From: Rhizobium sp. ICMP 5592
GTDB taxonomy: Bacteria > Pseudomonadota > Alphaproteobacteria > Rhizobiales > Rhizobiaceae
Direction: 5' to 3'
Assembly (NCBI RefSeq): GCF_009498525.1
Contig: NZ_QSNT01000001.1
Coordinates: 1 to 64,000 of the forward strand
DNA length: 64,000 bases
Position numbers and translations under genes: made by a program. Positions 43,980-63,344 of this stretch are shown one piece after another. The notes below the pieces were generated by a model. The model saw nothing but the letters and a program-made list of their open reading frames with translations. It was not told the DNA's origin and did not search any database. The number at the start of each line of letters is the position of its first letter. Position 1 is the first letter of the stretch.

Positions 43980-44489
43980 GTGGTGAAGACTCGTCCGATC
44001 GCCCTTGATGTCAATGGGCGCCACCACACGCTCGACCTGTCCCCAGAAACCCCTCTTCTCTATATCCTGCGTAACGATCTCGGTCTCAACGGGCCGAAAT
44101 TCGGATGCGGCCTCGGCGAATGCGGCGCCTGTGCGGTGTTGATCGGCAAACGCGCCGTGCGTGCCTGCACGATATCGGTCGCTGCTGCCGAAGGACGCGC
44201 AATCGTCACGCTTGAGGGTCTTGGCACGAAGGATAGGCTGCATCCGGTGCAGCAGGCCTTCATTGAAAAGCAAGCCGCACAATGCGGCTATTGCCTGAAC
44301 GGCATGATCATCGCGACGACAGCGCTGCTTCTTCGTAACGCGCAGCCGGACGAGACCGCCATTCGCGCAGCCCTCAGCCGCCATCTCTGTCGTTGTGGCA
44401 CGCATATCGAGATCCTCGCTGCCGCCCGTCGCGCCAGCGAGCTGATGGCCGCCCTTCCCTCCTCGACAATCGCGGAGGATGCGCCATGA
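43980..44489 (+). CDS. nicA: nicotinate dehydrogenase, small [2Fe-2S] subunit
   Basis: A 169-residue xanthine-oxidase-family iron-sulfur subunit. The plant-type [2Fe-2S] ligands are Cys43, Cys48, Cys51 and Cys63 (GCGLGECGAC), and the second cluster ligands are Cys102, Cys105, Cys137 and Cys139 (QCGYC...CRCG). It carries electrons from the molybdenum site in NicB. Starts at one of two tandem GTG codons after GGGAAGGGAG. Its stop overlaps nicB (ATGA). Pairing with a tri-haem large subunit of NicB length points to nicotinate hydroxylation to 6-hydroxynicotinate; a related N-heterocycle or aldehyde substrate is the alternative. Confidence 0.82.
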   Translation: MVKTRPIALDVNGRHHTLDLSPETPLLYILRNDLGLNGPKFGCGLGECGACAVLIGKRAVRACTISVAAAEGRAIVTLEGLGTKDRLHPVQQAFIEKQAAQCGYCLNGMIIATTALLLRNAQPDETAIRAALSRHLCRCGTHIEILAAARRASELMAALPSSTIAEDAP

Positions 44490-47400
44490 CCGCACCGCAG
44501 GAGACACCCCGCGCCCGCTATCTCGAGGCCACTGAAATCCTGCTGGTGGTCAAGCCTGGGAACACGCTCCAGCCCGACATCTTCCTTGCCCTTCATCCCG
44601 ATGGAACCGCCAGCGCCTTCAATGGCCATGTCGATCTCGGCACCGGCATCCGGACGGCTTTGGCGCAAATCGTCGCCGAGGAGCTCGATCTGCCTTTCGA
44701 ACGGGTCCGCATGGTGCTCGGCAGCACGACGGCGGCACCCGATCAGGGGGCGACGATCGCCAGCGAAACCATTCAGGTGACGGCGATCCCGCTGCGCCAG
44801 GCCGCGGCAACCGCGCGGCGCTGGCTGCTCGAACAGGCGGCTCTTCGCCATGGCGTCACGCCACAGACGCTCTCGATCGAAGAAGGCATCATTCACCCGG
44901 ATGCATCGGCCAACTGGTCGGTCACCTTCGGAGAGTTGATCGCCGGACGCCACGAGCGGATCACCATCGACGTCACCGCACCAATAAAGTCCGCGGAGAA
45001 CTACCGGATCGTCGGCAAGCCACAGCCGCGCAACGACATCGCTGCCAAGGCGACGGGGCAATGGACCTATGTGCATGATGTCCGCGTGCCGGACATGCTG
45101 CATGGCCGCGTCGTCCGCCCGCCCTATGTCGGCTTCGACCATGGCCCGCATGTCGGCCATAGCCTGATCTCCGTCAATGACGCTTCTATCGCCGACATCC
45201 CCGGCCTGATCGGGGTGGTGGCAATCGGTGATTTCGTCGGCATCGTCGCCACGCGCGAGGAGAACGCCGCCGAGGCCGCCCGCCGGCTTGAGGTCATGTG
45301 GCGCGATCCGCCGCTTCTGCCCGACCTCAACAATCCGGAACAGGCGCTACGCGACAACCCGGCCAAGAAACGTATTCTTGCCGATCAGGGCGATGTCGAG
45401 CGCGCGCTCGAGGGCGCGTCGCCGCGTTTCGACCGCAGCTACATCTGGCCCTATCAGATGCATGGTTCCATCGGCCCATCCTGTGCCGTTGCCGATTGGC
45501 ACCCGGAACGGCTGGTCGTCTGGTCGGGAACGCAAAACCCCTATCCGATGCGCCGCGATCTGGCGCTTCTTCTCGATATGCCGGAAGAGGCAGTCCTCGT
45601 CGAGCGGCTGGAGGCCGCCGGCTGCTACGGGCGCAATTGCGCCGACGACGTAACAGCCGACGCCGCCCTTTTGTCGCGCGCCGTTGGCCGGCCGGTACGC
45701 GTGCAGCTCACCCGCGAACAGGAGCATGGCTGGGAGCCGAAGGGCGCCGCCCAGGTAATCGACGTGCGCGGCGGGCTCGACCTCGAAGGCGGGCCGGCGG
45801 CCTATGATTTCGAGACGCGCTATCCGTCGAACCTGTCGCCGACGCTTGCCCTGATCTTGACCGGCAAGGCATCGAACGTCACGGCAACGTCGGATATGGG
45901 CGATCGAACAGCGATACCGCCCTATGCCTTCAGCAATATGCGTATCGCCGTGCATGACATGCCGCCGATCGCACGAGCCTCATGGTTTCGCGGCGTCTCG
46001 GCCATGCCGAACAGCTTTGCGCATGAAAGCTACATCGACGAACTCGCCTTTGCGGCCAAGGTGGACCCGGTCGAATACCGGCTGCGCTACCTGAAGGATC
46101 CAAGAGCAATCGAGCTGGTCCATGCGGTCACCGAACGCGCCGGCTGGGCGCCGCGCACTGAGCCGGGAACGATGGGCGGCGAAGGCGACCTGCTTTATGG
46201 CCGGGGCTTTGCCTATGCGCTCTATGTCCATGGCAAGTTCCCGGGAACGCCAGCCGCCTGGTCGGCCTGGGTCGCCGACGTCGCCGTCAACCGCAAGACT
46301 GGCGAGATCGCGGTCACGCGCGTAACGGTCGGCCAGGATTCCGGCATGATGATCAATCCGGACGGCGTGCGTCACCAGATCCACGGCAATGTCATCCAGT
46401 CCACCAGCCGCGTGCTGAAGGAGAAGGTGGATTTCTCCAGCACCGCCGTCGAGAGTGCCGAGTGGGGTGGCTACCCGATCATCACCTTCCCGGAAGTGCC
46501 TGAGATCGATGTGCTGATGCTGTTGCGCCAGGACGAAGAGCCACGCGGCGCCGGCGAATCCGCCTCGGTGCCGTCGGCTGCCGCCATCGTCAACGCCGTC
46601 TTCGACGCCACCGGCATCCGGTTCCGTGAACTGCCGCTGACACCGGAGCGCGTGCTCGCCGCCCTTGGCGAAACAAGCCCGGCGCTCGCTCTGCCGGCAC
46701 CGGTCAAGAAGCCATGGTGGCGGCGCGGATCGATGTTCACAGGCCTAGGCGGTATCGTCGCGGGCCTGCTTGCCGGCGGCATTCTCGCCGCCTCGCCCTG
46801 GCGCGGTGCCTATCCCGAAATCACGCCGCCGGATCCCGGCACCTACAGCGCCGCCACGATCAAGCGTGGGCGGCTGGCAGCGGCGATCGGCGCCTGCAAT
46901 GTCTGTCACACCGGAGCGGATGGAACGCCCTTTGCCGGCGGCCGCGCTTTCGACACGCCATTCGGCGTGGTCCATGCCACCAATATTACCCCCGACGCCG
47001 AAAACGGCATCGGCGCCTGGTCCTATCCAGCCTTCGAGCGCGCGATGCGCCAGGGCGTGCGCCGGGATGGAAAACATCTTTATCCGGTCCATCCCTACCC
47101 CTCATTTTCCGGTGCGACAGATGCGGATCTTCAGGCGCTCTATGCCTTCCTGATGACGCAGGCGCCTTCCACTGCAAAGACGACGAACAACGCCTTACGC
47201 TTCCCCTTCAACATCCGGCCGTTGCTGGCCGGCTGGAACATGCTTTTTGCAGGCGGACGGACGGTGCCGGCGGATGCAACGAAGGGTGAAGCCTGGAACC
47301 GCGGCGCCTATCTCGTCGAGACGCTCGGCCATTGTGGCGCCTGCCACACACCGCGCAATGCTCTTGGTGCGGAAAAGAAGGGCGACTTTCATCTCGCGGG

Positions 47401-48043
47401 CGGTGTCGCGGAGGGCTGGGATGCGCCGGCGCTGAATGGCGCGGGTCTTGCTCCCGTCGGCTGGAGCCAAACCGCTCTCTACGACTATCTGCGCACCGGC
47501 ACCGCCAAGGGCCATGGCAGCGCCGGCGGGCCGATGGGCGCGGTCGTCAAGGCGCTCGCTCCTCTTCCGGACAGCGATATCCAGGCCATGGCGACGTATC
47601 TGGCAGGCTTCTCGGGGCAGACGGAAGAGGGTGCTACGGCACAACAGACGACCGCACTCGCCAACACGAAGGCGGCGGAGGCCACGGCCGCACGGATCGC
47701 GCCGGTGGGGGCAAGGCTGTTCGAGGGTGCCTGTTCAGCCTGCCATACCGAGACTTCGCCGCTCGGATCGCTCACCTTCAACAGCAACTTGCATGCTGAC
47801 CGTCCCGACAATGTCCTGCTGACGATGATGCACGGGGCGGAAGCGCCGGCGCTGTTCGCCCAGAAGGCGGGCGCGGATGCCGCCGAGATCATGTCGATGC
47901 CGGCTTATGGCGAAGCCTTAAGCGATCGCCAGCTCACCGACCTCGCGGCCTATCTGCGCGCCCGCTTCGCTCCCGACAAGCCCGCATGGCAGGAACTTGG
48001 CGCTGCGATCGAACGCACTCGCGCCGTCCATCCGATGGATTGA
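44486..48043 (+). CDS. nicB: nicotinate dehydrogenase, molybdopterin/tri-haem cytochrome c subunit
   Basis: A 1185-residue fusion. Residues 1 to about 735 form the molybdenum-cofactor domain of the isoquinoline/aldehyde oxidoreductase group (VDLGTGIRTALAQIVAEELDLPF; APDQGATIASETIQ). A single membrane helix lies at about 751-772 (GLGGIVAGLLAGGILAA). The C-terminal part has three CxxCH haem sites at Cys804, Cys950 and Cys1083. Length and order match Pseudomonas NicB (about 1190 residues). It hydroxylates nicotinate with water and sends electrons via haem c to the respiratory chain. No N-terminal leader, so the catalytic domain would be cytoplasmic and the haems periplasmic. Confidence 0.85.
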   Translation: MTAPQETPRARYLEATEILLVVKPGNTLQPDIFLALHPDGTASAFNGHVDLGTGIRTALAQIVAEELDLPFERVRMVLGSTTAAPDQGATIASETIQVTAIPLRQAAATARRWLLEQAALRHGVTPQTLSIEEGIIHPDASANWSVTFGELIAGRHERITIDVTAPIKSAENYRIVGKPQPRNDIAAKATGQWTYVHDVRVPDMLHGRVVRPPYVGFDHGPHVGHSLISVNDASIADIPGLIGVVAIGDFVGIVATREENAAEAARRLEVMWRDPPLLPDLNNPEQALRDNPAKKRILADQGDVERALEGASPRFDRSYIWPYQMHGSIGPSCAVADWHPERLVVWSGTQNPYPMRRDLALLLDMPEEAVLVERLEAAGCYGRNCADDVTADAALLSRAVGRPVRVQLTREQEHGWEPKGAAQVIDVRGGLDLEGGPAAYDFETRYPSNLSPTLALILTGKASNVTATSDMGDRTAIPPYAFSNMRIAVHDMPPIARASWFRGVSAMPNSFAHESYIDELAFAAKVDPVEYRLRYLKDPRAIELVHAVTERAGWAPRTEPGTMGGEGDLLYGRGFAYALYVHGKFPGTPAAWSAWVADVAVNRKTGEIAVTRVTVGQDSGMMINPDGVRHQIHGNVIQSTSRVLKEKVDFSSTAVESAEWGGYPIITFPEVPEIDVLMLLRQDEEPRGAGESASVPSAAAIVNAVFDATGIRFRELPLTPERVLAALGETSPALALPAPVKKPWWRRGSMFTGLGGIVAGLLAGGILAASPWRGAYPEITPPDPGTYSAATIKRGRLAAAIGACNVCHTGADGTPFAGGRAFDTPFGVVHATNITPDAENGIGAWSYPAFERAMRQGVRRDGKHLYPVHPYPSFSGATDADLQALYAFLMTQAPSTAKTTNNALRFPFNIRPLLAGWNMLFAGGRTVPADATKGEAWNRGAYLVETLGHCGACHTPRNALGAEKKGDFHLAGGVAEGWDAPALNGAGLAPVGWSQTALYDYLRTGTAKGHGSAGGPMGAVVKALAPLPDSDIQAMATYLAGFSGQTEEGATAQQTTALANTKAAEATAARIAPVGARLFEGACSACHTETSPLGSLTFNSNLHADRPDNVLLTMMHGAEAPALFAQKAGADAAEIMSMPAYGEALSDRQLTDLAAYLRARFAPDKPAWQELGAAIERTRAVHPMD

Positions 48044-49732: not shown

Positions 49733-49821
49733 AAAAATGGGAACGACGCCGGTTATATATCCGTCCATGGGCTGATGGCAGCACCACCGGACGAGCGGCC
49801 GTGCTAAAGATGGAGAGTGCC

Positions 49822-51315
49822 ATGGTCAAGCAACGCGTGGAAAGCGTCGCGAACGGCAAGATACGCTGCGATGCCTGTCCCGTCATGTGCTACATCTCCG
49901 ATGGCCGCTCCGGCGCCTGCGATCGCTATGCCAATGTCGGCGGCGAGCTGATCCGCGTCGATCCGCTGACGATCATCGAGAACACCATTTCCGAGGGCGG
50001 CAATGTCGTGCCGTTCCTCGCCCAGCCGGACGAGAGCGAATGGGACGGCGACATCGTCCACGCCACCAGACGCTTTGTCACCGCCGTTGGCGCCGGAACG
50101 ACCTATCCCGATTACAAGCCAGCCCCCTTCATCGTCTCGCAGAAGGAAAACGGCATCGACATGGTGACCGTCGTCACCGAAGGCATCTTCAGCTATTGCG
50201 GCGCCAAGGTGAAGATCGACACCGACCGCTTTCTCGGCCCTGAAACGGCGACTGTGCTGGTCGACGGCGAGGCCATCGGCCATGTCACCACCGGCGAATA
50301 CGGCTCGCAAATGCTGTCGCTCGGCGGCGTCCACCACCTGACCGGCGGCTCGAAGAAAGAGGGCCGCGTCACCTGCGACGCGCTGTTGAAACTCTGTAAT
50401 GGCGAAGCCGTCGACATGCAGGTCGACGGCGGGGTCAGCCTGACCATCAAGGCAGGCGCGGCACCAGTGATCAACGACGTCGAGGAAAGCCGCATGCGCG
50501 TCGGCTGCGGCTCGGCCACCATCGGCATGTTCGCCAAGCAATGGATGGGCCATGTCGATGAAGTCGTCGTTGTCGACGACCATATCACCGGCGTACTCTC
50601 CGAACACCAGGCCGGGCGACTGCTCGATGTGCCCGCCACCGGCATTCGCATCAAGGGCCGGCGCTCGACGCCCGGCCGTTATTTCCAGGTGGCCGAGCCC
50701 GGCATCGGCTGGGGCGGCACCAACATCTCCGATCCTCTGACCATTCTCGGCGATTTCGATCCGAAGACCGCCTGGCCGGGCATGCGGATGTTGATGGTGT
50801 CGACCACCGGCGAGCAATATGGCTACTATATTCTCGACGACAATCTACGGCCGGAGCTGCAGACCATCCTTCCCGCGGCCCTGCAGGAATCGGTGGAGAT
50901 CATCGCCGAAAACTGCGAACCGGCGCTGACCTCGGTCCTGTTCATCGGCGGTGCCGGCGGAAGTCTGCGCGCTGGCGTCACCACGAACCCGGTCCGCCTG
51001 ACGCGTTCCGTCAAGGAAGCACTGACTCATGTTTCCTGCGGTGGCGTTCCGGCCTATGTCTGGCCGGGCGGCGGCATCACCGTCATGGCCGACGTGACGC
51101 AAATGCCGAGCAACGCCTTCGGCTACGTGCCGACGCCCGCGCTTGTCGCACCGATCGAATTCACCATGCGGCTCGATGACTACCGCGCGCTCGGCGGCCA
51201 TATGGAGGCTGTCATGCCGATCGAGCAGGCGCTGGAAGTGGCCGAACGCAAGGTGACGCCGATCGGCCGAGGCCCCTGGCCGACGGAAAGCCGAAACTTC
51301 CGGTGGGGCGCCTGA
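49822..51315 (+). CDS. hnr: 6-hydroxynicotinate reductase-like Fe-S protein
   Basis: A 497-residue protein; ATG 49822 is chosen because GGAGAG lies 5 bases before it (GTG 49801 and ATG 49810 are in frame). An N-terminal cluster motif has Cys16, Cys19, Cys23 and Cys33 (CDACPVMC...GACDRYAN), suited to an iron-sulfur centre. The rest is rich in Gly turns (GGVHHLTGG, GGAGGSLRAG, WPGGGI). Size and sequence fit the 6-hydroxynicotinate reductase family first described in Eubacterium barkeri, which reduces 6-hydroxynicotinate to 1,4,5,6-tetrahydro-6-oxonicotinate. NicAB and Fpr next door support that reaction. It heads an operon with six further genes. Confidence 0.8.
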   Translation: MVKQRVESVANGKIRCDACPVMCYISDGRSGACDRYANVGGELIRVDPLTIIENTISEGGNVVPFLAQPDESEWDGDIVHATRRFVTAVGAGTTYPDYKPAPFIVSQKENGIDMVTVVTEGIFSYCGAKVKIDTDRFLGPETATVLVDGEAIGHVTTGEYGSQMLSLGGVHHLTGGSKKEGRVTCDALLKLCNGEAVDMQVDGGVSLTIKAGAAPVINDVEESRMRVGCGSATIGMFAKQWMGHVDEVVVVDDHITGVLSEHQAGRLLDVPATGIRIKGRRSTPGRYFQVAEPGIGWGGTNISDPLTILGDFDPKTAWPGMRMLMVSTTGEQYGYYILDDNLRPELQTILPAALQESVEIIAENCEPALTSVLFIGGAGGSLRAGVTTNPVRLTRSVKEALTHVSCGGVPAYVWPGGGITVMADVTQMPSNAFGYVPTPALVAPIEFTMRLDDYRALGGHMEAVMPIEQALEVAERKVTPIGRGPWPTESRNFRWGA

Positions 51316-51334: not shown

Positions 51335-52276
51335 ATGTCGCGGCCTGTTGCCCGATATCTCGATGGCGATCCGAACGGCCGGCTGCATCTGCAGCACGGG
51401 CCGATCGATCTCGTCATTGGCGTCGATGACGGCGGCGCTGCCCGCAAGGGCGAAGCTGAACGGCGAGCCCGTGCTTTCGCGGCTGCCATCGCTCGCTTCC
51501 AGACAGTCCTTGATGAGTTGGTGAGCGAACTGCCGCTGCTCCGCGCTCCCGCCGAAATTGGCGGCCCAATGCCTGCGGGCTCCGTCGCCCGACGCATGGT
51601 CGCCGCAGTCCGGCCCTTTGCCGCCGATCATTTCATCACGCCGATGGCGGCCGTTGCCGGTGCCGTCGCCGACGAAATCCTGGCGGCGATGCTGGGGGCA
51701 TTCGATAACGGCGATCTCCCTCTCCGCGCCTATGTCAACAATGGCGGCGACATTGCCGTCCATCTGGGCGGCGACGCGGAATTTCATGTCCGCATGGCGC
51801 GCGAAGACGGCGCAGCACTTGGCGATTTCGCGCTTCACGCTTCCAGCCCCACGCGCGGCATCGCCACCAGCGGACGCGGCGGGCGCAGCCTGTCGATGGG
51901 GATTGCCGATTCCGTAACTGTGTTAGCAGCGAATGCGGCCGCCGCCGACGCAGCGGTCACGCTTGTTGCCAATGCCGTCGATCTCCCCGGCCATGCCGCC
52001 ATCAACCGGGCACGCGCCATCGACGTCGTCGACGACAGCGATCTCGGCGAGCGCCTTGTAGTCACCGGCTGCGGCCCCCTGACGGACGCGGAAATCGACA
52101 TGGCACTTTCCTGTGGCCTTGCCAGAGCTGAGCGTTTCATCGCCCTCGGCCTCATCGATCGCGCCGGCCTCTTTCTCAGAAACCAGGGCCTGCTCGCCAT
52201 GCCGGCCGCAGCCCAGCCATTTCCAGCCTCACCTCTTTCAATCGATCAATCCATGGAGCGGTTTTCCAATGCCTGA
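51335..52276 (+). CDS. UPF0280 family protein
   Basis: A 313-residue protein with features of UPF0280, a family related in fold to the ApbE flavin transferase: AYVNNGGDIAVHLGG, SSPTRGIATSGRGGRSLSMGIADSVTVLA, then DAAVTLVANAVD. Gly/Ser-rich loops could bind a nucleotide or phosphate. GGGAG precedes the ATG; the gene is 19 bp after the reductase gene and overlaps the next by 8 bases. Function in the pathway is unknown. Maturation of the neighbouring reductase or a chemical step after ring reduction are both possible. Confidence 0.75.
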   Translation: MSRPVARYLDGDPNGRLHLQHGPIDLVIGVDDGGAARKGEAERRARAFAAAIARFQTVLDELVSELPLLRAPAEIGGPMPAGSVARRMVAAVRPFAADHFITPMAAVAGAVADEILAAMLGAFDNGDLPLRAYVNNGGDIAVHLGGDAEFHVRMAREDGAALGDFALHASSPTRGIATSGRGGRSLSMGIADSVTVLAANAAAADAAVTLVANAVDLPGHAAINRARAIDVVDDSDLGERLVVTGCGPLTDAEIDMALSCGLARAERFIALGLIDRAGLFLRNQGLLAMPAAAQPFPASPLSIDQSMERFSNA

Positions 52277-52853
52277 CGTCAAGATCCGCAAGTTCCTCAC
52301 CGTTATCGACGAGATTTATCACGAAGGCGGCAAGCCCGTCGCAAAGCCGCTGAAGCGGGGAGCGATCGTCGCCGTCATCGAGAACCCTTTCGCCGGCAGC
52401 TATCATGAGGAAATCACCGGCTTCATGAAGGATCTGGAGCCGCTCGGTCTCGATATGGCAAACCGGCTGGTCGCAGCACTTGGCGGCGATCCCACCATTG
52501 TCGAGGGATATGGCAAGGGCATCATCGTCGGTCAGGCCGGCGAGTTGGAGCATGGTGCGCTCTGGCATGCGCCAGGCGGCTACGCCATGCGCGAAGTGCT
52601 GGGCGGCGCCAAGGCGATCGTGCCCTCCTCGAAGAAGGTCGGCGGCCCCGGCACGCGGCTCGATGTGCCGGTCACTCATATCAATGCCTCCTATGTACGA
52701 AGCCATTTCGACTCCATCGAAGTCGGAGTGCCGGACGGTCCGCGCTCCAACGAGATGGCGGTCGTGCTGGTGATGACCACCGGCCCGCGCGTCCATGCCC
52801 GCAGTGGCGGCCTCAAGGCTGAGGACATCAAGGGCGAGGACGGCCTGCGTTGA
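52269..52853 (+). CDS. AA_synth (PF06684/DUF1185) family protein 1
   Basis: A 194-residue protein: VKIRKFLTVIDEIYHEGGKPVAKPLKRGAIVAVIENPFAG, then GKGIIVGQAGELEHGALWHAPGGYAMREVLGGAKAIVPSSKKVGGPGTRLDVPVTHINASYVRSHFD. These fit the poorly understood amino-acid-synthesis family. The conserved Glu-His pair (GELEHGA) and Ser-Ser-Lys-Lys are candidate active-site residues. It overlaps the UPF0280 gene upstream and its paralogue downstream. It may catalyse ring opening, deamination or decarboxylation of a nicotinate intermediate; this is inference from position only. Confidence 0.8.
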   Translation: MPDVKIRKFLTVIDEIYHEGGKPVAKPLKRGAIVAVIENPFAGSYHEEITGFMKDLEPLGLDMANRLVAALGGDPTIVEGYGKGIIVGQAGELEHGALWHAPGGYAMREVLGGAKAIVPSSKKVGGPGTRLDVPVTHINASYVRSHFDSIEVGVPDGPRSNEMAVVLVMTTGPRVHARSGGLKAEDIKGEDGLR

Positions 52854-53434
52854 CCGCCGAGATCCGCAAGATCACTGTCTTCATCGAGGAGACGCTGAGC
52901 GAGATGGGTCAAACCATCTCGCCGCCGACGCGCAAGGCAGCCGCCGTCGCCGTCATCGCCAATCCTTTCGCCGGCCGCTATGTCGAGGATCTGACGCCGC
53001 TGATCGACATTGGCGCCGAACTCGGCGCTTTGCTTGGCCGCAAATGCGTCGAAGCGCTCGGAATTTCGCCGGCGCAGGCCGAAAGCTACGGCAAGGCGGC
53101 CCTGGTCGGCGAGGATGGCGAGCTGGAACATGCGGCTGCCCTGCTGCATCCTTCGCTCGGCAAGCCGCTGCGTGAGGCCGTGGAAAAAGGCGCTGCACTC
53201 GTGCCGTCCTCCAAGAAGCGCGGCGGTCCCGGCCGGCCCCTCGATATTCCCCTCGGGCACAAGGATGCCGCCTATGTGCGGTCGCATTTCGACGGGATGG
53301 AAGTGAGCCTCGCTGACGCACCGCGTCCGGCGGAAATCATGGTGGCCATCGCCGTGACCGATAGCGGCCGGCCGCTTGCCCGCGTCGGTGGGCTGAAGGC
53401 GTCCGAGGTCGAAGGCAAGGATGGCCTACGCTAG
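52850..53434 (+). CDS. AA_synth (PF06684/DUF1185) family protein 2
   Basis: A 194-residue paralogue of the preceding gene, equal in length. Shared landmarks are IRKITVFIEET, VAVIANPFAGRYVEDL, GEDGELEHAA, VPSSKKRGGPGRPLDIPLGHKDAAYVRSHFDGMEV and a C-terminal GLKASEVEGKDGLR. Its TTG start overlaps the previous TGA, showing tight coupling. The retained pair suggests a heteromeric enzyme rather than redundant copies. Its reaction is unknown. Confidence 0.8.
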   Translation: MTAEIRKITVFIEETLSEMGQTISPPTRKAAAVAVIANPFAGRYVEDLTPLIDIGAELGALLGRKCVEALGISPAQAESYGKAALVGEDGELEHAAALLHPSLGKPLREAVEKGAALVPSSKKRGGPGRPLDIPLGHKDAAYVRSHFDGMEVSLADAPRPAEIMVAIAVTDSGRPLARVGGLKASEVEGKDGLR

Positions 53435-53484: not shown

Positions 53485-55584
53485 ATGGGAACAGTCGTGA
53501 CTCAGCCTTCTTCGAATGAACCATCGGCCCCGACGCCTGAACAATCGCAGGTCGCGGGTATCGATGTCGGCGGCACATTTACCGATCTCGTGCTCTTCGA
53601 CACGATCTCCGGCAAGGTTCGCCTCGCCAAGACGCCAACCACGCTCGATAATCAGGCGTTCGGCGTTCTCAACGCGCTCGATGCGGCTGAAGCCGATGTC
53701 GCGGCGCTCGACCTCATCGTGCACGGCACCACCACCACCACCAATGCCGTCCTTGAGCGTAATCTCTGCCGAACGGGCCTGATCACCACCCGCGGTTTCC
53801 GCGACGTGCTGGAGCTCGGCCGACGCACGCGCCCGAATCCCTATGGCATGAAGGGCGAGTTTCGTCCGATCATCCCGCGCGACCTCAGGCTCGAAGTTCC
53901 CGAGCGCATGGATGCTGCCGGCAACGTGCTGATCCCGCTCGACGAGGAAGCGCTCCGCATTGCGCTCAAAGCCCTGCTGGATACAGGTTGCGAGTCGCTG
54001 GTCATCCACTTCCTCCACGCCTATGCCAATCCGGCGCATGAGCTGCGCGCCGGCGAGATCGCCGCCGAAATCTGGCCCAACGACAATATCACGCTCGGCC
54101 ATGCGCTTCTGTCCGAAAGCCGCGAATTCGAGCGCGGCGTCACAGCGGCCGTCAATGCGTCGGTGCAGCCGCTCCTGGCGCGCTATATCGAACGCCTCGC
54201 CGACCAGCTCGCCACCAAGGGCTACAGGCACGACGTTCTCGTGATGAACGGCAATGGCGGCATGGTCTCCGCACGCCATGTCGCCAAGGAAGCCGCAAAG
54301 ACGGTCATGTCCGGGCCTGCCTCCGGTGTCATGGCCGCCGCCTATACCGGCCGCCGTGCCGGCATCCCCAACCTCATCACCTATGACATGGGCGGCACTT
54401 CGACCGACGTTGCGCTGATCCGCAACGCTGAACCGGCGGTCTCCAACGAGATCGAGATCGAATACGCCATGCCGATCCACGTTCCGATGGTCGATGTCCG
54501 CACCGTCGGTGCCGGCGGCGGCTCGATTGCCAAGGTCACGGCCGCAGGCCTGCTGCAAGTCGGCCCGGAAAGTGCCGGCGCCATGCCGGGGCCGATCTGC
54601 TATGGCCGCGGCGGCACCATACCGACCATCTCCGACGCCAACCTGCTGCTCGGCCGCCTCAACCCCTCCAAGCTCAACTCGGTTCCCGGCGGCATTTCCA
54701 TCGACGGCATTCGCGAGCTGTTCGAGGAAAAGCTCGGCCGGGCGCTCGGGCTTGACGCGACGGCTGCGGCCGCAGCCGTTATCCGTATCGCCAATGCCCG
54801 CATGGCAGACGCCGTACGCATGGTCTCCGTCAGTCTCGGCGAGGATCCGCGCGATTTCGCGCTGTTCTCCTTCGGCGGCGCCGGTCCGCTGCACGCAACC
54901 GCGATCGCGCGGGAACTCGGCATCCCAAGGGTGCTGACGCCGTCCCGTCCAGGGATCACCAACGCGCTCGGCTGCGTCGTCGCCGATCTCCGGCATGATT
55001 TCGTCAACACCGTCAACCGACCGCTCGATGTCGCTGATATGGATGTCGTGCACGCGCTCTTCGAAAAGCAGTCGACAGAAGGACGCCGCCTGATCGGCAA
55101 GGAGGCGGTCGCCATTCGCGAGATCCGCGAGATTTACTCCGTCGACATGCAGTTCATCGGCCAGACGCATTTGCTGCGCGTGCCGCTTCCGAGCGCCATG
55201 CCGACACGCGCCGAATTGCAGGCACGCTTCGAGGAGGCCTATTTCAACCGCTTCCATGTCGAGCTTCCGGAAATCCGCGCCAGCCTCGTCAACGTCAACA
55301 CCTCGGTCATCGGCCGGCGCACCGAGATCGATCTGTCCATGCTGATCGATGCGGCCGGTCGCAAGGCGATGCTTGCCGAAGCGCAGACAGGCACGCGATC
55401 GGTCTGGTTCGATGGCTGGCGCGAAACGCCGATCTACTGGCGCGATCACCTGCCGATCAAGGCAAGCATATCGGGACCAGCGATCATCGAGCAGATGGAC
55501 ACGACCATCATCCTCGAGCCCGGTGACGTCGCCACCCAGGACGACGACGGCAATATCATCATCTCGATCGGAGCCGGCCAATGA
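53485..55584 (+). CDS. hyuA: hydantoinase/oxoprolinase subunit A
   Basis: A 699-residue protein with the actin/HSP70-like ATPase start GIDVGGTFTDLVLFD (25-39), then HGTTTTTNAVLERN, MSGPASGVMAAAYTGRRAGIPNLITYDMGGTSTDVALI and the C-terminal domain of the HyuA/5-oxoprolinase family. With HyuB it hydrolyses cyclic amides at the cost of ATP. Start 53485 or GTG 53497 (GGGAACA before it). It overlaps hyuB by four bases. In this cluster the lactam 1,4,5,6-tetrahydro-6-oxonicotinate is a plausible substrate; a hydantoin or oxoproline would be the conventional guess. Confidence 0.85.
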   Translation: MGTVVTQPSSNEPSAPTPEQSQVAGIDVGGTFTDLVLFDTISGKVRLAKTPTTLDNQAFGVLNALDAAEADVAALDLIVHGTTTTTNAVLERNLCRTGLITTRGFRDVLELGRRTRPNPYGMKGEFRPIIPRDLRLEVPERMDAAGNVLIPLDEEALRIALKALLDTGCESLVIHFLHAYANPAHELRAGEIAAEIWPNDNITLGHALLSESREFERGVTAAVNASVQPLLARYIERLADQLATKGYRHDVLVMNGNGGMVSARHVAKEAAKTVMSGPASGVMAAAYTGRRAGIPNLITYDMGGTSTDVALIRNAEPAVSNEIEIEYAMPIHVPMVDVRTVGAGGGSIAKVTAAGLLQVGPESAGAMPGPICYGRGGTIPTISDANLLLGRLNPSKLNSVPGGISIDGIRELFEEKLGRALGLDATAAAAAVIRIANARMADAVRMVSVSLGEDPRDFALFSFGGAGPLHATAIARELGIPRVLTPSRPGITNALGCVVADLRHDFVNTVNRPLDVADMDVVHALFEKQSTEGRRLIGKEAVAIREIREIYSVDMQFIGQTHLLRVPLPSAMPTRAELQARFEEAYFNRFHVELPEIRASLVNVNTSVIGRRTEIDLSMLIDAAGRKAMLAEAQTGTRSVWFDGWRETPIYWRDHLPIKASISGPAIIEQMDTTIILEPGDVATQDDDGNIIISIGAGQ

Positions 55585-57326
55585 GCATCGACCCCATCAC
55601 GCTGAGCGTCATCCAGTCCGGCCTGCAGCAGGTCTGCGATGAAATGGACCTGACCTTCTCCCGCGCCGCCTTTTCGCCGGTCATCGCCGAGGCCAACGAC
55701 CGCTCGGACGGCATCTATTCGGCAAAGGACGGTTCGCTGATTGCCCAGGGCGCCGGCGGCCTGCCGGTCTTCGTCGGCACCATGCAATATTCGACGCGCA
55801 CGCTGATCGAGATGATCGCCTCCGGCAAGGCGGCGGCGCCGAAGCCGGGCGATATCTATATCGTCAACGACCCCTATCTCGGTGGCACGCATCTGATGGA
55901 CGTGCGCTTCGCCATGCCGGTCTATCGTAATGGCGAGATCTTTTGCTGGCTGTCCAACACCGGCCATTGGCCGGATACAGGCGGTGCGGTCCCCGGCGGT
56001 TTTTCGGCCTCGGCCACCTCCGTCGAACAGGAGGGCCTGCGCCTGCCGCCGGTGCGGCTCTTCAAGGAAGGCAAGCTTGACGCCGAGATCTATGCCATCA
56101 TCTGCTCGAACATCCGCGTCTCCGAGCAGCGTATCGGCGATGTGAAGGCGCAGGCAGCCGCCCTTCTGGTCGGTCAGGAACGGCTCGTGCGTATTCTCGA
56201 ACGCTATGGCGACGATACGGTCGCCCAAGCGATCAGCGAGCTGCGTCGTCGCGCGGCCGAACAGATGCGCGCCAATATCCGGCTGATCCCGGAAGGCACC
56301 TACCGCTCCGTCGCCTATATCGACAGCGACGGCGTGGTCAACGAACCGCTCGAGATCCGCCTTTCGATCACGGCGACGGGCGACGAACTTTCCTTCGATT
56401 TCGAGGGATCGTCGAAGCCCTGTGCCGGGCCGATGAATTCGGTATTGGCGACGACGCTATCCTCCGTCTATCTCGCCATGCGCCATATCTTCCCCGACGT
56501 CCCGATCAGCGCCGGCGCCTTCGAACCGTTGAAGGTGAAGACGCCCGAGGGAACGTTCCTAGACGCCCATTATCCGCGCCCGGTTTCCGGCTGTGCTGCG
56601 GAAGTCAGCCAGCGGATCGCCGAAGCGGTATTTGCTGCACTGGTCGAGGCGCTGCCCGAGCGGGTGACGGCATCGCCCGCCGGAAGCTCCGGCAATTTCG
56701 CCCTCGGCGGTCACGATCCGGAGCGCGGACGCGGCTATGTCATGTACCAGATTTCCGGCGGCGGCTACGGCGGCAACAGCGATCACGACGGGCTCGCCAA
56801 CGGTTGCTCGACCATCGGCATTTCCAAGGCACCGCCGGTCGAGATCATGGAACAGCAATTCCCCGTGCTTTATCATCGCTATGCCCTTCGCGAAGGGTCC
56901 GGCGGCGCCGGCAAGCATCGCGGCGGCTTTGGTCTCGACTACGAGATCGAACTCAGGCGCGGTGCAGCGACCGCCAGCTTCGTCATGGATCACGGTCGTT
57001 TCGGGCCGCAGGGCGCACTTGGCGGCAGTGACGGCCGGACGAACAGCGTCACGGTCTGGCGCGGCGGCGAAACGATGACGCCGGAGCATCTCTCGAAAGC
57101 GCAGGATATAGCATTGAAACCCGGCGACCGCGTCCGCGTCGGCACGCCGGGCGGCGGCGGCTACGGCGACCCGTTGACACGCGACCCGCAAGCCGTTGTA
57201 GAAGATGTGCGGCTCGGTCGTTATACATCGACCGAAGCGCTCGATCTGTTCGGCGTTGTCGTAACAGCGGATTGCCATCCGGATACGGCCGCGACCGAGC
57301 GAGCCCGCGCCAGCCGCAAGGCATAG
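55581..57326 (+). CDS. hyuB: hydantoinase/oxoprolinase subunit B
   Basis: A 581-residue partner: DPITLSVIQSGLQQVCDEMDLTFSRAAFSPVIAEANDRSDGIY, then GDIYIVNDPYLGGTHLMDV, STGHWPDTGG-like SNTGHWPDTGG, and YGGNSDHDG and GGGGYGDPLTRDP near the C-terminus, all HyuB marks. ATGA overlap with hyuA means stoichiometric synthesis. Acts with HyuA in ATP-dependent cleavage of a cyclic amide. It precedes the glutaryl-CoA dehydrogenase gene by 42 bp. Confidence 0.88.
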   Translation: MSIDPITLSVIQSGLQQVCDEMDLTFSRAAFSPVIAEANDRSDGIYSAKDGSLIAQGAGGLPVFVGTMQYSTRTLIEMIASGKAAAPKPGDIYIVNDPYLGGTHLMDVRFAMPVYRNGEIFCWLSNTGHWPDTGGAVPGGFSASATSVEQEGLRLPPVRLFKEGKLDAEIYAIICSNIRVSEQRIGDVKAQAAALLVGQERLVRILERYGDDTVAQAISELRRRAAEQMRANIRLIPEGTYRSVAYIDSDGVVNEPLEIRLSITATGDELSFDFEGSSKPCAGPMNSVLATTLSSVYLAMRHIFPDVPISAGAFEPLKVKTPEGTFLDAHYPRPVSGCAAEVSQRIAEAVFAALVEALPERVTASPAGSSGNFALGGHDPERGRGYVMYQISGGGYGGNSDHDGLANGCSTIGISKAPPVEIMEQQFPVLYHRYALREGSGGAGKHRGGFGLDYEIELRRGAATASFVMDHGRFGPQGALGGSDGRTNSVTVWRGGETMTPEHLSKAQDIALKPGDRVRVGTPGGGGYGDPLTRDPQAVVEDVRLGRYTSTEALDLFGVVVTADCHPDTAATERARASRKA

Positions 57327-57368
57327 CTACGCCATGATTGAGAAAAGAGAGAATTGGGAGACGAGAGC

Positions 57369-58550
57369 ATGAGCCGCGAGATATTCGATTGGGCCGATCC
57401 GTTCCGGCTGACGGAACAGCTGACCGATGACGAACGCATGGTGCTGGACACGGCTCATGCTTACGCGCAGGAGAAGCTGGCGCCCCGCGTGCTCGACGCT
57501 TTCCGCCACGAGAAGACCGATCCCTCGATCTTCCGCGAGATGGGCGAACTCGGCCTGCTCGGCCCGACCATTGCCCCCGAATATGGCGGCGCCGGCCTCG
57601 GCTATGTAGCCTATGGCCTGATCGCTCGCGAAGTCGAGCGCGTCGACAGCGGCTATCGCTCGATGATGAGCGTGCAGTCTTCCCTCGTCATGGTGCCGAT
57701 CGACGCCTTCGGATCCGAGGCGCAGAAGCAGAAGTACCTGCCGAAGCTTGCCACCGGCGAATGGATCGGCTGCTTCGGCCTCACCGAACCCAATCACGGC
57801 TCCGACCCCGGCTCGATGGCGACACGGGCGAAGAAGGTCGATGGCGGCTATAGCCTCACCGGCGCCAAGACCTGGATTTCCAATGCGCCGATCGCCGATG
57901 TCTTCGTCGTCTGGGGCAAGACCGAAGACGGCGTCATCCGTGGCTTCATCCTGGAGAAGGGCTGGAAGGGACTGTCCGCGCCCGCCATCCACGGCAAGGT
58001 CGGCCTGCGCGCCTCGATCACCGGTGAAGTCGTCATGGAGAATGTCTTCGTGCCGGAAGAAAACCTGCTGCCCAAGGTCTCCGGCCTCAAGGGTCCATTC
58101 ACTTGCCTGAACTCCGCCCGCTTCGGCATTGCCTGGGGTGCGCTGGGTGCTGCCGAGGATTGCTATGCCAAAGCGCGGCAATATGTGCTCGACCGCCAGC
58201 AGTTCGGCCGGCCGCTTGCCGCCAACCAGCTGATCCAGAAGAAGCTCGCCGACATGGTGACCGAGATCACGCTCGGGCTTCAGGGCTGCCTGCGTCTCGG
58301 CCGCATGAAGGAAGACGGCCATCCGCCGGTCGAGCTGACCTCGATCCTGAAGCGTAATTCCTGCGGCAAGGCGCTCGACATTGCCCGCGCCGCCCGCGAC
58401 ATGCTCGGCGGCAACGGCATCTCCGACGAGTTCGGCATTGCCCGCCATCTGGTCAACCTCGAAGTGGTCAACACCTATGAGGGCACCCACGACATCCACG
58501 CCCTCATCCTCGGCCGTGCCATCACCGGCATCGCCGCTTTTTCGAACTGA
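57369..58550 (+). CDS. gcdH: glutaryl-CoA dehydrogenase
   Basis: A 393-residue acyl-CoA dehydrogenase-fold enzyme; ATG 57369 follows GGGAG. Marks of GcdH are [48 protein letters not shown], and the catalytic base Glu371 in [20 protein letters not shown]. It oxidatively decarboxylates glutaryl-CoA to crotonyl-CoA with FAD, passing electrons to ETF. Its place at the end of the nic operon matches the Azorhizobium pathway, where nicotinate carbon reaches glutaryl-CoA. Confidence 0.92.
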
Positions 58551-59355: not shown

Positions 59356-60543
59356 ATGAGAGGACTTTTTGCGATTATGGGTACGGCCCTTTGTCTTGCG
59401 GCCGGGACACACGCGATGGCCGGCGAGATCAAGGTCGGCGAGATCAACAGTTATTCCGCGCTACCTGCTTTTACCGATCCTTACAAGAAGGGCTGGCAGC
59501 TGGCGCTTGACGAGGTCAACGCGGCGGGCGGCATCAACGGCGACACGCTGGTGATCATTTCCAAGGACGACGGCGGCAAGCCCGGCGACGCGCTGACGGC
59601 CGCAAACGAGCTGGTCGCGAAGGAAGGGGTGGTGATGATCTCCGGCTCCTTCTTCTCGAATGTCGGGATGGCGGTCGCCGATTTCGCCAAGCAAAAGAAG
59701 GTCTTTTATCTGGCGGGAGAGCCGCTGACCGACGCGATGATCTGGTCGAAGGGGAACGACTATACCTTCCGCCTGCGTCCGCCGAACTATGTGCAGGCCG
59801 CCATGCTGGCACAGGAGGCGGCCAAGCTGCCGGCAAAGCGCTGGGCAACCATCGCGCCGAACTATGAATATGGCCAAAGCGCCGTGGCCGTGTTCAAGGA
59901 ATTGCTCCAGAAGGCCCGGCCCGACGTCGAGTTCGTCGGCGAGCAATGGCCGCCGCAGGGCAAGATCGACGCCGGCTCCGTGGCGCAGGCCATCGAGGCC
60001 GCCAAGCCGGATGCGATCCTCAACGTCGAATTCGGCGCAGACCTGGTGAAGCTCGTGCGCGAAGGCACGACCCGCGATCTCTTCAAGGGCCGCTCGGTGG
60101 TTTCCTTCCTGACCGGCGAGCCGGAATATCTCGATCCGCTTAAGACCGACACGCCGGAAGGATGGATCGTCACCGGCTACCCCTGGTATTCCGTCGACAC
60201 GCCAGCCCATAAGGCATTTCTTGACGCTTACCAGAAGCGCTATAATGACTATCCCCGCCTCGGCTCGGTGGTCGGCTACGCACTGGTCAAGTCGATGGCT
60301 GCGATCCTGACCAAGGCAAAGTCGACCGATACGGATGCGCTGATTGCCGCCGCCAAGGGTATTTCGGTCGACACTCCCTTCGGCCCGATCACCTATCGTG
60401 CCGCGGACCATCAATCGACGCTCGGCGCCTTCATCGGCAAGACCGCCCTCAAGGACGGAAAAGGCGTGATGGTCGATTTCCAGTACCATAGCGGCAACGA
60501 CTTCCTGCCGAGCGAAGCCGACGCTGCCAAGCTCCGCCCCTAG
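59356..60543 (+). CDS. branched-chain/amide-type ABC substrate-binding protein
   Basis: A 395-residue type-1 periplasmic binding protein with signal peptide (MRGLFAIMGTALCLAAGTHAMAG). Landmarks are IKVGEINSYSALPAFTDPYKKGWQLALDEVNAAGGINGDTL, NYEYGQSAVAVF and WYSVDTPAHKAFLDAYQKRY. GAGAGGACG precedes the ATG. First gene of an importer operon next to the nic cluster and a NicR-like gene, so nicotinate or a related pyridine carboxylate is a candidate ligand, though unproven. Confidence 0.88.
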   Translation: MRGLFAIMGTALCLAAGTHAMAGEIKVGEINSYSALPAFTDPYKKGWQLALDEVNAAGGINGDTLVIISKDDGGKPGDALTAANELVAKEGVVMISGSFFSNVGMAVADFAKQKKVFYLAGEPLTDAMIWSKGNDYTFRLRPPNYVQAAMLAQEAAKLPAKRWATIAPNYEYGQSAVAVFKELLQKARPDVEFVGEQWPPQGKIDAGSVAQAIEAAKPDAILNVEFGADLVKLVREGTTRDLFKGRSVVSFLTGEPEYLDPLKTDTPEGWIVTGYPWYSVDTPAHKAFLDAYQKRYNDYPRLGSVVGYALVKSMAAILTKAKSTDTDALIAAAKGISVDTPFGPITYRAADHQSTLGAFIGKTALKDGKGVMVDFQYHSGNDFLPSEADAAKLRP

Positions 60544-60651
60544 CGGAACCATCAAGGCTGGCGGTCGCGGCGTCATGCCCTTCCGCTGGCAAGATGGACA
60601 CGCGCTATCGAGCCGGCATTCGCTCCATGGATCGAATGCCACCCTTGTTAA

Positions 60652-62565
60652 ATGGGCAGGGAGCCTCCGTTGGACCTTTATCTTCTGCAGTTCCTGACCG
60701 GGCTCTCGAATGCCGCCTCGCTGTTCCTGGTCGCCTCCGGACTATCGCTGATCTTCGGTGTGACCCGCATCGTCAATTTCGCCCATGGCGCTTTCTACAT
60801 GTTGGGCGCCTATATCGCCTATAGCTTGACGACCCGCTGGGAGAGCGCCTTTGGCTTCTGGGCAGCCCTGCTCGTATCCGCCGCTATCGTCGCCGTCTGC
60901 GGTGCTCTGCTGGAAATCCTGCTGCTGCGCCGTATCTACCGCGCTCCCGAACTCTTGCAGCTTCTGGCCACCTTCGGCGTCACGCTCGTCGTCGAGGACG
61001 GTGTGCGGCTGATCTGGGGACCGGAAGATCTCGTCGGGCCACGAGCACCGGGACTGTCCGGCGCCGTCGAAATCCTCGGCCGGCCCTTTCCAGCCTATGA
61101 TCTCGTGCTCATCGCGCTCGGGCCTGCCGTCCTCGGCATGCTGTGGCTGCTGCTGCACCGCTCGCGATGGGGCATTCTGGTGCGTGCCGCCACGCAGGAC
61201 CGCGATATGGTCAGCGCGCTTGGCGTGAACCAGAAATGGCTTTTCACCGGTGTCTTCGCGCTTGGAGTCTTCCTGGCTGCCTTCGGTGGCGGCCTGCAAA
61301 TCCCGCGCGATGCCGTCACGCATTTCATGGATCTGTCCATTATCACCGAGGTTTTCGTGGTGGTCGTGATCGGCGGGCTCGGCAGCATTGGCGGCGCCTT
61401 TCTGGCCGCCATCGTCGTTTCGGAGCTGAACGCCTTTGGCATCCTGGTGTTTCCAGGCATTTCCCTGGTGCTGATGTTCGTGGTCATGGCGGTCGTCCTT
61501 GTGCTGCGTCCCTGGGGCTTTTTCGGCAAACCGCTGCCTGCGTTCCGCGCTGGCTACGCGGCCAGGACGACGTGGCAACCACTTGGTCCGCGCAGCCGTG
61601 TCGCCGCCGGCGCGCTGATCTTAGGCGCTGTCCTGCTGCCATCGGTGCTCGGCAATTACGGTCTCGGGGTCGCAAGCGAAGTCCTGATCGCGGTGATCTT
61701 CGCCACCAGTCTCCAGTTCATGATGTCGGTGGGCGGGCTGGACTCCTTCGGCCATGCCGCAAGCCTCGGCCTCGGCGCCTATGGGGCGGCGCTATCGGTC
61801 CAGTGGCTCGGCGCGCCGATGGAGCTTGCCCTCGTCATCGGGCCGGTCGTTGCGGCGGCCATATCCCTCGTCTCGGGGTGGTTCTGCGTTCGGCTGTCCA
61901 ACATCTATTTCGCCATGCTCACGCTGGCCTTCGCGCAGATCTTCTGGTCGATCGCCTACCAGTGGGTCGACGTCACCGGCGGCGACAACGGCATCGTTGG
62001 CGTCTGGCCATCCGAATGGGCGAGCGGCGCCAGGGCCTTCTATTGGCTGGCGCTGGCGGCGGCCGTTCTGTCGGTCGGCTGTATCCGCTACCTCACCTTT
62101 GCGCCGTTCGGCCATGCCCTGAGAGCACTCCGGGATTCGCCGCAGCGCGCCGCGGCGACCGGCATTCCGCGCCGCGCTGTCCAGCATACGGCATTCGTCA
62201 TCTCGGCCTTCTTTGCCGGCCTTGCCGGCTCGCTCCTGGCGTTCCAGAAGGGAAGTATCTTTCCCGAAGTGCTCGGCATCCCGATGTCGATCGACGGGCT
62301 CGTCATGGTTCTGCTTGGCGGTTTCGGCACGGTGTCGGGCGGCATCGTCGGCGCGATCGTCTACAAGACCGCGTCCATCTGGCTGATGAGCAACACTGAT
62401 CTCTCCCGCATGATCCTCGGCGGCCTCATCATCCTTCTGGTCGTGGCCTTTCCGGAGGGGATCGTCGGAACGCTGGGCCGCGTGTTCGGAGCCCGCAAAC
62501 AGCAACAAGCAATGCTTCCTCAACCCCTTTCGCAGCCGATCGCCAAGATGGGGGATGCACCATGA
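60652..62565 (+). CDS. fused LivH-LivM ABC transporter permease
   Basis: A 637-residue protein carrying both permeases in one chain. Residues 1 to about 295 are LivH-like (FGVTRIVNFAHGAFYMLGAYIAY; GGLGSIGGAFLAAIVVSELNAFGI) and about 310-615 are LivM-like (DSFGHAASLGLGAYGAALS; ISAFFAGLAGSLLAFQKG; LLGGFGTVSGGIVGAIVYK). The TTG at 60670 with AGGGAG 6 bases before it is an alternative start to ATG 60652. The fusion fixes a 1:1 channel. It overlaps the next ATPase gene by four bases. Confidence 0.9.
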   Translation: MGREPPLDLYLLQFLTGLSNAASLFLVASGLSLIFGVTRIVNFAHGAFYMLGAYIAYSLTTRWESAFGFWAALLVSAAIVAVCGALLEILLLRRIYRAPELLQLLATFGVTLVVEDGVRLIWGPEDLVGPRAPGLSGAVEILGRPFPAYDLVLIALGPAVLGMLWLLLHRSRWGILVRAATQDRDMVSALGVNQKWLFTGVFALGVFLAAFGGGLQIPRDAVTHFMDLSIITEVFVVVVIGGLGSIGGAFLAAIVVSELNAFGILVFPGISLVLMFVVMAVVLVLRPWGFFGKPLPAFRAGYAARTTWQPLGPRSRVAAGALILGAVLLPSVLGNYGLGVASEVLIAVIFATSLQFMMSVGGLDSFGHAASLGLGAYGAALSVQWLGAPMELALVIGPVVAAAISLVSGWFCVRLSNIYFAMLTLAFAQIFWSIAYQWVDVTGGDNGIVGVWPSEWASGARAFYWLALAAAVLSVGCIRYLTFAPFGHALRALRDSPQRAAATGIPRRAVQHTAFVISAFFAGLAGSLLAFQKGSIFPEVLGIPMSIDGLVMVLLGGFGTVSGGIVGAIVYKTASIWLMSNTDLSRMILGGLIILLVVAFPEGIVGTLGRVFGARKQQQAMLPQPLSQPIAKMGDAP

Positions 62566-63344
62566 GCCAGCCGCTTCTGTCGGTATCGCATCTGAGCAAG
62601 AGCTATCAGGGCGTCAAGGCGGTCACTGACGTCTCTTTTTCGCTTGCCCGCGGCGAGCTGATGGCGCTGATCGGTCCAAACGGCGCCGGAAAAAGCACCT
62701 GCTTCAACATGCTGAACGGGCAGATCCGGCCCGATGCCGGATCGGTGATCCTCGACGGGGTCGCGACATCCGGTCTTTCACCCGCGCGAATCTTCCGCCT
62801 CGGCGTCGGCCGGACATTCCAGATCGCGGAAGTCTATCTGTCGATGACGGTTCGCGAGAATGTGCAGGTGGCAATCCTGTCCCATGCCGGGCATCTTTCC
62901 GGATGGACTGGCTTCTTCGGGCGGCTGGACCGCAAATTCCGCCGCGAAGCCGAAGAGCTGATCGGCCTGATCGGTCTCGGCGACCAGGCCGATCGTCCCT
63001 GTCGCGAACTTCCCTATGGCGACGTCAAGCGGCTGGAGCTTGCAATCGCCCTGGCGGGCGATCCGAAGCTCCTGCTGATGGACGAGCCCGCCGCCGGCAT
63101 GGCTCCACGGGAACGCATCGAGCTCATGAAGCTGACCGCCCGGATCGTCGAGGAAAGACAGATCGGCGTTCTTTTCACCGAGCATGACATGGACATCGTC
63201 TTTGAACATGCGTCGCGGATCCTCGTGCTCAATCGCGGCGCGATCATCGCGGAAGGATCTCCCGAGGCGATCCGGACCAATCCCGATGTCCAGGCCGTCT
63301 ATCTCGGCTCCGGCCTCCTTTACGCCAACAGATCGGAGGGCTGA
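62562..63344 (+). CDS. branched-chain-type ABC transporter ATPase (LivG-like)
   Basis: A 260-residue ATPase: Walker A GPNGAGKST, signature region LPYGDVKRLELAIAL (LivG-type, without the usual LSGGQ), Walker B LLLMDEPAAGMAPRE and H-loop TEHD. Starts by ATGA overlap with the fused permease and ends overlapping the LivF-like start by one base. Energises the importer. Confidence 0.92.
   Translation: MSQPLLSVSHLSKSYQGVKAVTDVSFSLARGELMALIGPNGAGKSTCFNMLNGQIRPDAGSVILDGVATSGLSPARIFRLGVGRTFQIAEVYLSMTVRENVQVAILSHAGHLSGWTGFFGRLDRKFRREAEELIGLIGLGDQADRPCRELPYGDVKRLELAIALAGDPKLLLMDEPAAGMAPRERIELMKLTARIVEERQIGVLFTEHDMDIVFEHASRILVLNRGAIIAEGSPEAIRTNPDVQAVYLGSGLLYANRSEG

Follow-up and report, generated by a model that had tools for sequence, protein, structure and literature searches.

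Proposed roles for UPF0280 and AA_synth proteins in a HyuAB-type nicotinate cluster of Rhizobium

Introduction

A decarboxylation in the breakdown of nicotinate by Azorhizobium was reportedly described by Kitts in 1992. The 6-hydroxynicotinate reductase (Hnr) of E. barkeri is said to contain a covalent flavin and Fe-S clusters (work of Alhapel, 2006). The trigonelline pathway is said to have been worked out by Perchat in 2018, and sulfide work on the methanogen protein MA1715 is attributed to Rauch and Perona in 2016. Our literature search, which left most subscription papers outside its reach, turned up no gene for the decarboxylation and no role for UPF0280 with Hnr.

Enamidase, which opens the reduced ring, has been described as deaminating as well (PMC9304392). 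COG2122 proteins, to which UPF0280 belongs, have been linked in methanogens and Desulfovibrio to the formation of homocysteine and the handling of sulfur (PMC5764234, PMC12068725). As for the AA_synth family (PF06684), BB2672 and SPO0826 were each made alone and were hexamers in solution, and conserved Glu-Arg pairs in the solved structures were described as dimer salt bridges (PMC2954203). Another family member, TgnF, was reported to stimulate the oxidation of succinate semialdehyde by TgnE (PMC7913881).

Here we consider three genes, for one UPF0280 and two AA_synth proteins, in a stretch of 64,000 nucleotides from Rhizobium sp. ICMP 5592 (the window; contig NZ_QSNT01000001.1, positions 1 to 64,000).

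Results

The nicotinate cluster of the window includes these genes:

49801..51315, + strand: Hnr, 6-hydroxynicotinate reductase homologue (plasmid-record annotation of homologues)
51335..52276, + strand: UPF0280/COG2122 protein, 313 amino acids (NF003322)
52269..52853, + strand: AA_synth 1 (AA1 clade), ATG start, 194 amino acids (PF06684, tree)
52850..53434, + strand: AA_synth 2 (AA2 lineage, SPO0826-like), TTG start, 194 amino acids (PF06684, 2QTP)
53485..55584, + strand: HyuA, hydantoinase/oxoprolinase subunit (Pfam)
55581..57326, + strand: HyuB, second subunit (PF02538, 543.9 bits)
57354..58550, + strand: acyl-CoA dehydrogenase, candidate glutaryl-CoA dehydrogenase (Pfam)
59356-63344: ABC transporter (translations)

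A preliminary description of this DNA had placed overlapping UPF0280 and tandem AA_synth genes between Hnr and HyuAB, and the coordinates agree: the three genes run in one direction, UPF0280 begins 19 nt after the end of Hnr and overlaps AA_synth 1 by 8 nt, AA_synth 1 overlaps AA_synth 2 by 4 nt, and HyuA starts 50 nt beyond AA_synth 2. The equal length of the AA_synth proteins and the GELEH and SSKK stretches noted in both are indeed seen in the translations (the latter as PSSKK), and gene content and co-occurrence (below) uphold the assignment of the trio to a nicotinate pathway. (For AA_synth 1, a longer open reading frame runs from 52113; our Pfam query started at 52263, two codons before the ATG at 52269.)

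Upstream of Hnr are the subunits of a Mo-hydroxylase, and then ferredoxin-reductase-like and MarR-like genes on the opposite strand. Downstream of the acyl-CoA dehydrogenase, an opposite-strand MarR-like gene is followed by the ABC transporter. (The MarR and ABC names were read off the translations, not taken from a profile scan.) The acyl-CoA dehydrogenase scored 217 bits against NF045552 (glutaryl-CoA dehydrogenase), which has a cut-off of 470 and was not its best match, so we infer its substrate. We also noticed that the Mo-binding subunit (44486-48043) has C-terminal cytochrome c domains by Pfam, which suggests that its electrons are delivered to the respiratory chain. The named records with the most similar Hnr are those of Rhizobium rhizogenes OV677 (99%) and R. 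lusitanum (97%).

We named the reductase Hnr because 17 of 26 plasmid records label its homologue (63-80% identical) as 6-hydroxynicotinate reductase. Neither Pfam nor NCBIfam gave a family for it at E 0.001; at E 10, Pfam gave GCV_T_C alone (E 0.0036). Comparison by sequence to solved structures gave no convincing match (best E 0.71), a profile search of PDB sequences found none, and neither Foldseek nor VIA-align gave a convincing match for the predicted model (pLDDT 74; best Z 4.3), although the absence of a match does not imply a new fold. Cysteines 20, 23, 27, 37, 189, 233, and 369 (counted from 49810) are present in all 48 aligned sequences, and Cys 130 is present in 47 of them. We considered that GSAT (234-237) might be an ApbE-type flavinylation motif, but residue 237 is alanine in 12 of the 48 sequences, so the strict form of the motif was rejected. 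Because Hnr and the DUF39/COG1900 enzymes both accompany UPF0280, we also considered that they might be related. The Pfam search at E 10, with GCV_T_C as its only match, gave no sign of such kinship.

Some other observations touch on Hnr. The N-terminal CxxCxxxCx9C stretch by itself has weak matches in other genomes (E about 1e-4). In four loci (L112, 1234-4157; L114; L128; L134), a pair of 2-oxoacid:ferredoxin oxidoreductase subunits is encoded near Hnr and might supply it with reduced ferredoxin. A VanA-type Rieske oxygenase is encoded near Hnr in eight loci (L098, 11838-12878, and seven others).

UPF0280 is found wherever Hnr is. The search covered 289 genomes from the class and 299 from the phylum (the samples partly overlap), with Hnr called at E below 1e-100 and UPF0280 called by NF003322. 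Hnr and UPF0280 were present in the same 44 genomes of the class and in the same 21 genomes of the phylum, or 61 different genomes when pooled. These counts leave out weak matches to Hnr (G078 and G182 in the class; G427, G512, and G536 in the phylum) and to UPF0280 (G099, G109, G121, and G143 in the class; G558 in the phylum). They include two genomes (G064 and G087) as UPF0280-positive whose genes are split over contigs and score below the cut-off, which 42 of the 289 pass. Both genes could be located on a single stretch in 41 class loci, and in all 41 UPF0280 comes after Hnr in the same orientation. A further 80 loci, the nearest among at least 588 relatives, were also examined. In 73 of them UPF0280 is found downstream of Hnr at no more than 400 nt, and in 3 it is elsewhere in the stretch; the other 4 have no UPF0280 in the stretch, but it is present elsewhere in those genomes. 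That UPF0280 is kept even after its separation from Hnr speaks for a functional tie and not only shared transfer. The window protein scores 374.7 bits against NF003322, above the equivalog cut-off of 290. We are confident, short of certainty, that UPF0280 serves Hnr. Within the genus the cluster is patchy, as the three genomes of this genus in the phylum sample (G322, G380, and G519) have neither gene.

The predicted model of UPF0280 (pLDDT 93) is most similar to 2O34 (DVU1097; Z 18.2, rmsd 3.6, 214 aligned), which a profile comparison also matches (E 3.4e-12). ApbE and Ftp structures follow at Z 13-14 (for instance 4XGW, Z 14.3, rmsd 3.4, 207 aligned), and the next fold is at Z about 8. A shared ApbE fold is by itself no proof of function. 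In Pfam, no family was listed for UPF0280 at E 10, including PF02424 (ApbE). It also lacks the HxxDPxTG stretch of ApbE and has TSG..GRS.S.G at 178-189 instead. Asp205 is present in 49 of 49 sequences, and position 209 is occupied by Thr in 47 sequences and by Ser in the other 2; the two resemble, and may correspond to, the Mg-binding Asp/Thr pair of ApbE. PF02424 is absent from 22 of the 44 Hnr genomes (18 of 40 when only those of good quality are counted). The genome of the window, which is 99.99% complete, is one of the 22, so UPF0280 is the sole ApbE-like protein that these searches find there.

The co-occurrence with Hnr, the ApbE fold, and the 22 genomes without the Pfam ApbE make it likely that UPF0280 is a maturation protein specific to Hnr, and a dedicated Hnr maturase is our best reading. 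Reductase maturation had been among the jobs suggested for these genes, and for UPF0280 the shared genomes in both samples and the fold of the model speak for it. That it serves Hnr through flavin, we would put at slightly under an even chance. Instead, UPF0280 might give sulfur to Hnr or help to build its Fe-S clusters, as COG2122 probably does for the DUF39/COG1900 homocysteine enzyme, with no role in flavin attachment. The tie of COG2122 to homocysteine and sulfur would favor a sulfur or Fe-S role over flavin: COG2122 mutants were reported to be rescued by methionine, with fitness that tracks DUF39 (PMC5764234), and MA1715 has been termed a sulfur trafficking protein (PMC12068725). Hnr has seven invariant cysteines and one nearly invariant one, and the flavin site of ApbE is not fully kept in UPF0280. 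However, there is no cysteine among the 37 invariant columns of UPF0280, and the fold of its model is that of flavin transferases, for what a fold can tell. Overall, we consider the sulfur or Fe-S role rather unlikely.

The enzymes that might open the ring exclude each other. Among the 44 Hnr genomes, 17 encode enamidase (68-100% identical to the copy in L094, which matches 2VUN at E 4.2e-111), 26 encode HyuA (strong matches of 57-100% identity; in G028, G187, and G280 there is one stop in the matched frame), and none has both. Neither is present in one genome (G226, 70% complete), whose AA_synth belongs to the trigonelline clade described below. In the flanks of the 80 further loci, we found enamidase in 44 (including L192, L237, and L243, at only 49-51% identity) and HyuA in 8, but never both; 28 have neither within the stretch examined. 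The eight HyuA loci (L174-L181) are seven Rhizobium/Agrobacterium/Neorhizobium records and one Hyphomicrobiales MAG, and all have the gene order of the window, Hnr-UPF0280-AA1-AA2-HyuA-HyuB. Six loci of the phylum sample were also inspected: two have enamidase and AA2, two have HyuA and AA1 only, and two have neither opener in the flank. Because of this mutual exclusion, HyuAB is the most likely ring opener here, and we think it probable that it acts in place of enamidase. The best NCBIfam families for HyuA and HyuB are those of caprolactamase (NF050156 and NF050157), at 482.5 and 331.5 bits and so below the cut-off of 1000.

Both AA_synth proteins match PF06684 over its full length (234 bits for AA_synth 1 and 246 for AA_synth 2; cut-off 27), and they are 46% identical. 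In a tree of 77 of the 79 AA_synth sequences (L143, which has an inner stop, and one duplicate were left out), AA1 forms a clade of 31 rows with support 100/99, a trigonelline-associated clade has 12 rows with support 100/100, and the AA2 rows lie in a third set, mixed with other lineages. Among solved structures, AA2 is closest to SPO0826 (2QTP; E 9.9e-94). In 36 aligned sequences, N39, Y81, K83, R108, and D156 are invariant, as are G82, G91, E94, H95, R174, and R178, and E92 is nearly so. If E92, E94, R174, and R178 are the salt-bridge residues, then K83, Y81, N39, R108, and D156 remain as candidates for the site.

The preliminary description took the pair to be a conserved heteromer, on its equal lengths and its shared GELEH and SSKK stretches. 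This reading now seems improbable. It fits the overlapping genes and the similarity of the two proteins, and both genes are present in 15 of the 44 Hnr genomes and in 49 of the 80 further loci. But AA1 occurs alone in 14 of the 44 genomes and AA2 in 6 (9 have neither), and among the further loci, some of which are short contigs, 23 have AA2 alone and 3 have AA1 alone. Also, SPO0826 was a hexamer by itself in solution, although the crystal held a monomer (PMC2954203). Since the two genes occur apart and solved relatives are homohexamers, we rejected an obligate heteromer. As judged by sequence, the GELEH stretch is a signature of the whole family; the trigonelline clade lacks the SSKK stretch.

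The distribution of AA2 is tied to the ring opener. AA2 is present in 17 of 17 enamidase genomes but in only 4 of 26 HyuAB genomes (Fisher 1.4e-8, ignoring the relatedness of the genomes), and in all 44 enamidase loci among the 80. We considered that AA2 might be an accessory of enamidase only. This is disfavored, as AA2 is kept in 8 of 8 loci of the Rhizobiaceae group that have HyuAB instead, with no enamidase in the flanks. The retention of AA2 under both openers suggests that it acts at a step after ring opening that is common to both. We also rejected AA1 as a specific partner of HyuAB: it is in 16 of 26 HyuAB genomes and 13 of 17 enamidase genomes (Fisher p 0.34, again ignoring relatedness). 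In the class sample, 22 of the 26 genomes with HyuAB lack AA2, and 8 of the 26 lack both AA1 and AA2 (3 have an AA_synth of another lineage and 5 have none; a weak PF06684 match in G056 was not counted), so neither protein is essential everywhere.

AA_synth proteins are not confined to nicotinate clusters. The same genome has a third AA_synth about 0.97 Mb away, within this cluster:

L004 6673-16893 (G000:C1 about 1024700-1034900): trigonelline-type cluster (translations and tgn order)

It includes genes for a GntR regulator, the third AA_synth, an alpha/beta hydrolase, a flavin reductase, a luciferase-like monooxygenase, an aldehyde dehydrogenase, and an ABC transporter. We named these genes from their translations and from the tgn gene order. 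Across 16 trigonelline-type AA_synth loci, the alpha/beta hydrolase (29% identity or more to that of this genome) is found in 13 and a close luciferase-like monooxygenase (55% or more) in 8. In one other AA_synth lineage, 3 of 4 loci encode enamidase-like amidohydrolases (40-41%). The remaining AA_synth neighbors include amidase, esterase, luciferase-like or GMC oxidoreductase, amine oxidase, and MFS genes. The preliminary description would have been weakened had its trio been common next to unrelated pathways. In the genomes searched, this is not the case for UPF0280, but it is partly so for AA_synth, given the trigonelline-type clusters and the other hydrolases. Separately, L144 (9686-13089) has genes for an AA_synth, an enamidase-like amidohydrolase, a PF02441 flavoprotein, and a protein with a 2Fe-2S ferredoxin domain, and it may encode a similar pathway that acts on a different ring compound.

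Discussion

From the observed gene content, co-occurrence, replacement of ring openers, lineages, invariant residues, and fold of the UPF0280 model, we propose that the trio belongs to an Azorhizobium-type breakdown of nicotinate, in which UPF0280 matures Hnr, HyuAB opens the ring, and AA2 decarboxylates. As a whole, this proposal is tentative, with its chances just below even, and we infer every chemical step. UPF0280 would mature Hnr, most likely by handling its covalent flavin, which we presume from the E. barkeri enzyme. Hnr would form 1,4,5,6-tetrahydro-6-oxonicotinate. HyuAB, presumably with ATP, would open this lactam in place of the metal enzyme enamidase, and the product would be either the enamine 2-(aminomethylene)glutarate or 2-formylglutarate and ammonium. 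AA2, as its own homohexamer, would remove CO2 from 2-formylglutarate, by way of a Schiff base on the invariant lysine (K83 in AA1 numbering, Lys82 of AA2). The resulting glutarate semialdehyde would be converted to glutarate and then glutaryl-CoA. The paralogue AA1 would act beside AA2, possibly to free ammonium from the enamine.

The preliminary description had offered ammonium release or decarboxylation as steps for these genes, and for AA_synth both are plausible, short of proof. The simplest mechanism for the loss of CO2 from a 2-formyl acid would be a Schiff base between a lysine and the formyl group. With this and the genomic context, decarboxylation of 2-formylglutarate by AA2 is a possibility that we hold with modest confidence. 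That AA1 has a role of its own in this part of the pathway is about an even bet. In the trigonelline route, the analogous intermediate would be 2-formylsuccinate. Several AA_synth neighborhoods have no obvious formyl-acid chemistry, which counts against a decarboxylase, and the decarboxylation may be partly spontaneous. Also counting against it, attempts to see an effect of HcdD, the AA_synth of a coumarin cluster, failed (PMC7913881).

If the decarboxylation is spontaneous, then AA_synth proteins might instead be enamine or imine hydrolases, RidA-like in effect, that would free ammonium from 2-(aminomethylene)glutarate in the nicotinate route and methylamine in that of trigonelline. The same type of enamine arises in both routes. 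The fold of the family is also like that of Bacillus chorismate mutase (PMC2954203). However, enamidase is described as deaminating too (PMC9304392), and yet AA2 accompanies it in every enamidase genome, so we consider such a hydrolase unlikely. The 2010 proposal that these proteins sense the environment or take part in amino-acid synthesis is less likely by far. It reflected the authors' view of the structures and neighboring genes for branched-chain amino-acid transporters (PMC2954203). What looks like the same type of ABC transporter is found next to or near the AA_synth genes in many nicotinate clusters, including this one, so nicotinate uptake would explain that neighbor.

If our proposal is correct, then two families that have structures but no settled function would gain separately testable jobs in one pathway. 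The link to Hnr would give a second client to UPF0280, whose family has until now been connected with sulfur metabolism. That genomes carry either HyuAB or enamidase but not both suggests a second variant of ring opening, of the HyuAB type, which would allow genome annotations to be corrected. A bolder joint reading, which we regard as doubtful, is that UPF0280 is a new ApbE-derived enzyme for attaching a cofactor, with Hnr as its one client here, and that AA_synth proteins are a new family of lysine-dependent 2-formyl-dicarboxylate decarboxylases, common to the breakdown of nicotinate (C6) and trigonelline (C5).

The closest described cluster is the Azorhizobium-type one of Bradyrhizobiaceae SG-6C (PMC3511419). 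Compared to the relatives examined here, the window has HyuAB where many of them have enamidase, and its two AA_synth genes are in tandem. The caprolactamase CapAB is the top-scoring NCBIfam relative of HyuA and HyuB, yet they fall far below its curated cut-off. SPO0826 (2QTP) and BB2672 (3BYQ) are in the same family as the AA_synth pair, and the former is very close to AA2. TgnF is of the PF06684 type (PMC7913881), and this genome has a paralogue in its trigonelline-type cluster, which belongs to a clade (100/100) separate from AA1 and AA2 and without SSKK. UPF0280 shares its fold with the ApbE and Ftp flavin transferases but has neither the Pfam ApbE match nor HxxDPxTG. It shares both fold and family (by profile) with DVU1097 (2O34, DUF375/COG2122). 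For DVU1097 of Desulfovibrio and MA1715 of methanogens, the client in the literature is DUF39/COG1900 (PMC5764234, PMC12068725), whereas for UPF0280 of the window it is probably Hnr.
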